From: Pseudobacteriovorax antillogorgiicola
GTDB taxonomy: Bacteria > Bdellovibrionota_B > Oligoflexia > Oligoflexales > Oligoflexaceae
Direction of reading: 5' to 3'
Length of the DNA: 64,000 nucleotides
Assembly: GCF_900177345.1 (NCBI RefSeq)
Contig: NZ_FWZT01000027.1
Coordinates: 1-64,000 of the forward strand
Shown piece by piece: positions 62,703 to 64,000 of the stretch (its first letter is position 1; every line of letters begins with the position of its first letter). A program made the position numbers and the translations under genes. The notes beneath the pieces were generated by a model. That model made no database searches and was not told where the DNA came from. It saw nothing but the letters and a program-made list of their open reading frames with translations.

Positions 62703-62779
62703 GGCGAGGTAGCTCAGTTGGTTAGAGCGCAGGATTCATAATCCTGAGGTCACGAGTTCAATTCTCGTCCTCGCTACCA
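62703..62779 (+). tRNA. tRNA-Met (CAT), elongator
   Basis: A complete 77-nt cloverleaf with encoded CCA. D-arm GCTC/GAGC, anticodon stem CAGGA/TCCTG with loop TTCATAA, T-arm ACGAG/CTCGT. The acceptor GGCGAGG/CCTCGCT ends in a G1-U72 wobble. It lacks the C1xA72 mismatch of initiator tRNA. An Ile2 (lysidine-modified CAU) tRNA is the alternative, but the D-loop AGTTGGTTA is like elongator Met. Confidence 0.9.
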
Positions 62780-63026
62780 CTAAACTCCCAATATAATTAG
62801 ATAAATTTTTCCTTAAGAGACATATCTTTATGGCGACCTAGGACTAACTTGGTTCTAGTAGGTTCTAATCTAAAATAGAGCTATTCTACTTTCAAACAAG
62901 TTATCTTTCGACATAGACTCCCCTCTTAGTTCGCTTCAAAAAGAAATTCAAGGCTTTAACAAAATCTGATAATCTTGAAAGACTACAGACTAGTAATAGT
63001 AGAAAGTACATGCTAGAGGAGCTTTT
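62780..63026. other. junction between tRNA-Met and accessory gene
   Basis: A 247-base, visibly A+T-rich stretch. No gene or clear promoter for the next gene. If an island inserted at the tRNA 3' end, its left attachment site would be in 62760-62790; the second copy would be beyond the window. Confidence 0.35.
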
Positions 63027-64000
63027 TTGAGTTCATCGTTTTCTGCAACAGATGCCGCATTAGGTTATCTCTACCAAGTTAGAGTCGCCCTTTTCCTCTC
63101 CCTAAATAAGCTAAAACAAGAAGACACCTTCACAGTTAGCATAGAAACACTTGATGATGTAACTTTTGGCACCAATGCAGGTACTCCTACTGAATTACTA
63201 CAAACGAAACATCACATGAAGTCTGCTGCTTCATTAACTGATGCAAGCCCAGATATTTGGAAAACACTTCGCATCTGGTTTGAATTAAAAAGAGATAGAA
63301 GTATCTCTAGCGCAACAAACTTGTTTTTAATGACAACAAGTTCAGCGTCCGACAGTTCAGCGGCTTGCCTACTAAAAAAAGAGAAAAGAAATGTTCGCTT
63401 AGCAAGGGAACTATTAGATGCCACTGCTAGAACGTCAACTAATGAGAAGAATAAACGAGCATATGAAGTCTACCTTGATAGCACTCCAGAAGAGAGAGAG
63501 TCAATATTAAGTAAAATGGTCATTATCGATTGTTCCTCAAATATAAGCTCTCTTGACCAAGAAATACGCGACGAAATCTATTGGGCTGCACGAAGCGAGC
63601 ACCTGGAGCAATTTCAAGAGAGATTGGAGGGTTGGTGGTTTCGAAGGATATTAGGACAATTATCCGAACCAGGATCAGACTGGGTAGGGTCTGTAGAACT
63701 GGAGTCACAAATGTCAGACTTAAGAGATCAATTCAAAACCGATTCACTCCCTATTGATGACGACTTACTAGATTTTACTCTTGATGAAGGTATAGAAGAA
63801 ACTCATGCAAGCTTTGTTTTCGTAAAACAATTAAATCTAATAAGCGTAGGAAAACGAAGGGTAGCTCTAGCAATACGAGACTACTACAGAGCCTATGAGC
63901 AAAGGTCAAGATGGATACGCGATGATCTCATTATCGATATTGATCTTAGAAAATACGAAAAAAAGCTTTTGGATGAATGGGAAATTGTTTTTGAGTCTAT
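63027..64000 (+). CDS. Cap4-like nuclease / ABC-3C-like defence protein (cut by window end)
   Basis: TTG 63027 follows AGAGGAG (63015-63021), and the frame is open for 324 codons to the window end, so the 3' part is missing. Residues about 5-65 resemble the Cap4/DUF4297 dsDNA-nuclease domain: ATDAALGYLYQVRVAL, then VSIETLDDVTF and ELLQTKHH, giving a restriction-endonuclease-type set of Glu40, Asp44, Glu56, Gln59 and Lys61. The later part (RDYYRAYEQRSRWIRDD, YEKKLLDEWEIVFE) resembles C-terminal modules of ABC-three-component systems. Such proteins act with an ABC ATPase in phage defence or DNA conflict. Codon use (many AGA, ATA, CTA) differs from carB. Its partners would be just outside the window. 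Confidence 0.65.
   Translation, partial: MSSSFSATDAALGYLYQVRVALFLSLNKLKQEDTFTVSIETLDDVTFGTNAGTPTELLQTKHHMKSAASLTDASPDIWKTLRIWFELKRDRSISSATNLFLMTTSSASDSSAACLLKKEKRNVRLARELLDATARTSTNEKNKRAYEVYLDSTPEERESILSKMVIIDCSSNISSLDQEIRDEIYWAARSEHLEQFQERLEGWWFRRILGQLSEPGSDWVGSVELESQMSDLRDQFKTDSLPIDDDLLDFTLDEGIEETHASFVFVKQLNLISVGKRRVALAIRDYYRAYEQRSRWIRDDLIIDIDLRKYEKKLLDEWEIVFES

Follow-up and report, generated by a model that had tools for sequence, protein, structure and literature searches.

The window analysed here, bases 1–64000 of the 105,557-bp contig C27 in a 7.3 Mb draft genome (G000), ends within a gene that begins shortly after a tRNA gene. This arrangement raises the question of what the gene encodes, whether it opens a defence island, and how such an island came to lie there. 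The initial annotation had read the gene as a Cap4/DUF4297-like nuclease continuing into an ABC-3C part, and had placed to its right the remaining genes of the system, an SMC/ABC ATPase gene among them, and a second copy of the 3′ end of the tRNA. Reading of the contig was continued past the end of the window, and the features found are collected in Table 1.

Table 1. Features of the tRNA-Met locus on contig C27
Feature	Position	Strand	Length	Remarks
tRNA-Met(CAT)	62703..62779	+		ARAGORN; putative integration site
Left repeat copy (attL-like)	62741-62781			3′ part of tRNA-Met
Ribosome-binding sequence GAGGAG	63015..63021	+		5 nt upstream of the lmuA TTG start; read from sequence
lmuA, part in window	63027..64000	+	codons 1-324 of 400	predicted Cap4-type PD-(D/E)XK nuclease domain and start of CTD7
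lmuA, whole gene	63027-64229		400 aa	TTG start; open to the window end
lmuC (MC3)	C27:64226-64720		164 aa	beyond window; 4-nt overlap with lmuA
lmuB (DUF3732)	C27:64717-66660		647 aa	beyond window; 4-nt overlap with lmuC
IS	C27:66711-68387 (L005:6711-8387)			beyond window; 50 bp after lmuB
Right repeat copy	C27:68782-68822			beyond window; two mismatches

Setting and composition of the locus

The tRNA-Met(CAT) gene is directly preceded by carAB, and the carB–tRNA-Met linkage is kept in relatives. The gap from the end of the tRNA gene to the start of lmuA is 247 bases, as originally noted, and is non-coding. Promoter and terminator scans stayed at chance level. The DNA of positions 63027–64000 had been described as A+T-richer, and its G+C content is indeed 39.1%, whereas the remainder of the window averages 45.5%; among 974-bp windows taken from that remainder it ranks at the 0.6th percentile. 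The claim of AGA/ATA/CTA-rich codons held for two of the three: AGA accounts for 43% of the arginine codons in lmuA compared with 9% in carB, and ATA for 43% of the isoleucine codons compared with 14%, but CTA was not raised (22% of the leucine codons compared with 21%). The A+T-rich DNA and the atypical codons count in favour of the island reading.

Genes and domains of the lmuABC operon

The translation of the last ORF contains both peptides quoted in the annotation, IETLDDVTF and ELLQTKHH. These features of the original description go well past what chance would give. Pfam analysis of the full protein revealed a CTD7 ABC-3C domain, the expected C-terminal docking domain of LmuA, at residues 265–386 (4.9e-43), whereas the match to Cap4_nuclease (5e-4) reached 20.6 bits against a gathering score of 26.2 and was thus sub-threshold; the nuclease part of the original reading was borne out instead by active-site residues that are invariant and align with the mutated lysine of solved LmuA, and by fold matches to LmuA and CBASS Cap4. 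The two genes to the right encode LmuC, which matched PF20131 MC3 (2.6e-46), and LmuB, which matched PF12532 DUF3732 (1.3e-53) and is the SMC/Rad50-like protein expected next door, a zinc-hook ABC ATPase. CTD7, MC3 and DUF3732 all scored above the Pfam gathering scores, and PADLOC recognized LmuA (1.1e-67), LmuC (2.1e-9) and LmuB (5.6e-144). As judged from these profile matches, lmuABC is a complete, ordinary Lamassu-Cap4/ABC-three-component operon, a system of a known kind.

Sequence motifs of LmuB comprise a Walker A motif GASKSGKS, a signature GSGEN, a Walker B motif LDQPSQ and a zinc hook CPLC, a feature that many but not all members of the family have. Wherever the Walker B motif was recognized among LmuB relatives, its glutamine was present (105/105), and a CxxC occurred in 78 of the best 80 among at least 565 genome relatives. 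Lamassu and ABC-3C were treated as one superfamily in a 2023 review (PMC10586767), which described the LmuA–LmuC–LmuB composition, the zinc hook and a change of the Walker B glutamate to glutamine, all of which are present in lmuABC here. Among solved Lamassu proteins in the PDB, sequence matches were obtained for LmuB (9hqu, 6e-62; 9ny5, 1.3e-53), for LmuA (9nxx, 6.2e-14) and for LmuC (9uxh, 9ny5 and 9hqu, at 0.006–0.03).

Active site and fold of LmuA

In an alignment of 68 LmuA sequences, E40, D43, D44, Q59 and K61 were invariant. K61 is aligned with the lysine that was changed from K to A in the variant chains 9ny1 (compared with 9nxx) and 9hqx (compared with 9hqu), and the effector LmuA is, on its sequence, a Cap4-type nuclease with an intact predicted active site. 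When the AlphaFold2 model of LmuA (pLDDT 94, pTM 0.83) was compared with PDB folds, LmuA chains from Salmonella and Vibrio took the top 18 places, and structures of CBASS Cap4 and DUF4297 came next. The whole-chain TM-scores to the LmuA chains were mostly 0.33–0.51 with a large rmsd, which in the model probably reflects a differing angle between the two LmuA domains.

The nuclease domain, being of the Cap4/DUF4297 kind, would also fit a CBASS effector or a HerA–DUF4297 system. The operon, however, lacks a SAVED domain, a CD-NTase and a HerA ATPase, the NCBIfam profile DUF4297_antiphage scored 12.9 bits, its cut-off being 300, and the C-terminal part of LmuA is CTD7 with MC3 and DUF3732 as partner genes. 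Such an identity is exceedingly improbable, and both CBASS Cap4 and HerA–DUF4297 were rejected on the gene content of the operon.

Comparison with solved systems

The Salmonella enterica Lamassu system (PDB 9hqu, 9hqx and 9hr5) likewise consists of LmuA, LmuC and LmuB, with a Cap4-type nuclease carrying the catalytic lysine and a DUF3732 ATPase with a CPxC zinc hook (CPMC there, CPLC here) and the Walker B motif LDQPSQ. It differs in its host and locus and is distant in sequence (LmuB E 6e-62), LmuA aligning in two separate stretches only. The Vibrio cholerae Lamassu/DdmABC system (PDB 9nxx, 9ny1, 9ny5, 9nyg and 9uxh–9uxl) shares the three components and the active-site lysine, and its LmuA can be aligned across nearly the full length, although the solved LmuB of the V. 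cholerae group (u169872) is without a CxxC at the hook position, where CPLC is found here. From the ABC-3C systems defined by the Pfam families CTD7, MC3 and DUF3732 no difference was found; all three families are present here.

Predicted mechanism

Directly observed are the genes and the order in which they stand, their domains and catalytic motifs, the matching fold and the repeat. A likely mechanism can be proposed around them. LmuB would dimerize via its zinc hook and, together with LmuC, would keep LmuA inactive. When LmuB encountered the DNA of a phage or plasmid, in the form of ends or unusual structures, LmuA would be freed, and the free protein would form a tetramer and cleave double-stranded DNA at its Cap4 PD-(D/E)XK site, so that the infected cell would be killed or arrested (abortive infection). 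We infer the DNA sensing, the release and tetramerization of LmuA and the abortive outcome from the homologous systems of Salmonella and Vibrio whose structures are solved, the PDB titles of which refer to an LmuACB nuclease sequestration state, a DNA-bound LmuACB and a DNA-bound LmuA tetramer; besides these titles, the proposal draws on the 2023 review (PMC10586767) and on general background. The island itself would have been inserted by a tyrosine integrase that has since become absent from inside it, an integrase origin that we likewise infer for the direct repeat.

Borders and contents of the island

The foreseen second copy of the tRNA 3′ end does lie to the right, in a direct repeat of 41 bp with 39/41 positions identical (95%; E 1.2e-10 in the whole genome). 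The island between the two copies is ~6.1 kb long and holds lmuABC, one IS and ~400 bp without a convincing gene. The IS has 42-nt imperfect terminal inverted repeats and encodes a DDE transposase of 516 aa whose N-terminal part carries CxxC pairs. It did not reach the NCBIfam cut-offs for IS66, IS256 and ISL3 and was absent from ten relatives, and a 5′ remnant of it lies at C47:16144–16365; possibly it represents an undescribed IS group. There is no integrase between the repeats, and a search of the host's own genome with PF00589 detected none on contig C27. This missing integrase is the only unusual point of the island.

Directly to the right of the island lie genes for a DUF4382-like lipoprotein, a DUF4423 regulator and a protein with a β-lactamase fold. 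A syntenic empty site with this right-hand flank was sought in relatives via the DUF4423 regulator and none was found, the regulator family being many-copy: this TIGR02147-like regulator has ~20 matches in the window's own genome and many in relatives. PADLOC, run on six genes right of the island and two left of it, detected no defence family, and Pfam gave no named defence family further right, with the possible exception of a caspase-domain protein ~8 kb past the repeat. That protein (650 aa, Peptidase_C14 3e-15) belongs to a row of genes outside the island at C27:76060–79927 (L005:16060–19927), which consists of a Sigma-70-like factor, an unknown gene, the caspase-domain protein and another unknown gene. 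Because the scanned neighbours are not defence genes, the locus is a single-system mini-island and does not open a larger defence island. The initial annotation was thus right about a tRNA-bounded island carrying a defence system, but the element is compact, 6.1 kb with a single system rather than several. Taken together, we are highly confident that the locus is a complete Lamassu-Cap4 system with a predicted anti-phage function and the mechanism predicted above, and that it forms the sole cargo gene set of an island at the 3′ end of tRNA-Met. Counting against this view are the sub-threshold Cap4_nuclease match, the low whole-chain TM-scores, the missing integrase and the two mismatches in the right copy of the repeat.

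Origin of an island without an integrase

Elements at comparable sites bear on how the island lost, or never carried, an integrase. In a genome of a sister genus (G001), a tyrosine integrase (PF00589, 2.9e-12) and genes of phage- or plasmid-like character come after the same carB-linked tRNA-Met. The 3′ end of this tRNA recurs there as a 45-bp repeat (100% identical) on another contig, beside chromosomal-type genes. The presence of this different, integrase-bearing element suggests that the carB-linked tRNA-Met is probably an integration hotspot. An Elusimicrobia locus (L061) has the order tRNA-Met, integrase (judged from a C-terminal HxLRHT motif), two genes and LmuABC, and a genome of the same class as the host (G044; L028:2786–12202) has a tRNA-Arg, a tyrosine integrase, a Schlafen-AlbA protein, a divergent LmuABC and AbiEii/AbiEi, and ends on the far side in a tRNA-like repeat of 19 bp. 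In a gammaproteobacterial MAG (L064:3555–12136), Dsr1 (5.2e-151) and LmuABC are flanked by a tRNA-Ser 3′ end on one side and a 43-bp repeat on the other, again without an integrase; the LmuA and LmuB of this MAG are 55% identical to those here.

The island may have decayed, an IS-linked deletion having taken the integrase from the right end and left the three defence genes intact but stranded. This agrees with the IS lying so close behind lmuB, with no target-site duplication seen at its flanks, and with the gene-poor ~400 bp left before the right repeat; yet no integrase remnant was found when these ~400 bp were searched for one, and in both G001 and the Elusimicrobia locus the integrase stands on the tRNA side, which here is the non-coding gap. 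We judge the chances of such a decay to be evenly balanced. A non-autonomous (cis-mobilizable or ‘hitcher’) element, moved by the integrase of another element at the same tRNA att sites, would leave the same borders. The L064 relative, also integrase-less between its repeats, speaks for such movement, as do the tyrosine integrases of the host's own genome, one of which is 40% identical to the integrase using tRNA-Met in G001. That related integrase, on contig C10, adjoins tRNA-Arg rather than tRNA-Met, however, and the two cases, here and in L064, could both be decay. We consider this origin unlikely. The island resembles the CIMEs (cis-mobilizable elements), which are att-bounded elements having lost their integration genes (PMC5704250), in its att-like repeats at both ends, its position at a tRNA 3′ end and the absence of an integrase within, but differs from them in that mobilization is only a candidate here and that no ICE or IME was seen in tandem. 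Decay by way of a deletion linked to the IS offers the simplest account; movement in trans may have occurred, but is based on two cases.

A broader proposal is that this Lamassu lineage travels on small integrase-less, tRNA-bounded defence cassettes moved in trans by same-site integrases of other elements. Its instances are the tRNA-Met island here and the tRNA-Ser locus with Dsr1 in the unrelated genome of L064, and we regard it as quite doubtful. Several loci of the system's own 11-member clade have a tRNA close by (a post-hoc count), and there was no clear general tRNA enrichment beside the trio, few of the best 80 loci having a tRNA close by. An Acutalibacter locus (L132:5324–15340) carries LmuABC flanked by repeats, in which the 3′ end of a tRNA-Thr and a complete second tRNA-Tyr are included; genes resembling a serine recombinase and a tyrosine integrase also lie within. 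At two other loci (L063:5386–11941 and L066:2576–11959), LmuABC lies beside or within type I restriction-modification-like operons, with HsdM/HsdS-like genes just upstream (by eye).

Distribution and significance

LmuB relatives are encoded by at least 565 candidate stretches in genome contigs, and the trio was complete in 78 of the 80 best of these. The hosts of the trio include Elusimicrobia, Accumulibacter, Phycisphaerae, Chloroflexi and Methanosarcina, among others, and even hosts that are very distantly related have LmuB proteins 52–55% identical to that here, a sign of horizontal spread. Plasmid sequences contributed 89 records matching LmuB, and on many plasmids the operon is annotated, its three genes being named ABC-three component, middle component and DUF3732; relatives of LmuB were found in 36 IMG/VR contigs. 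Around the host, LmuB was present in 2/96 of the genomes searched, that of the window included, and the other copy is 28% identical; this rarity likewise favours the island reading.

The locus adds an intact Lamassu-Cap4 operon from a lineage in which the system is rare, with one other, distant copy among the 95 relatives searched. Borders without an integrase, seen twice among the close relatives of the system, give a modest clue to the way in which single defence systems move.
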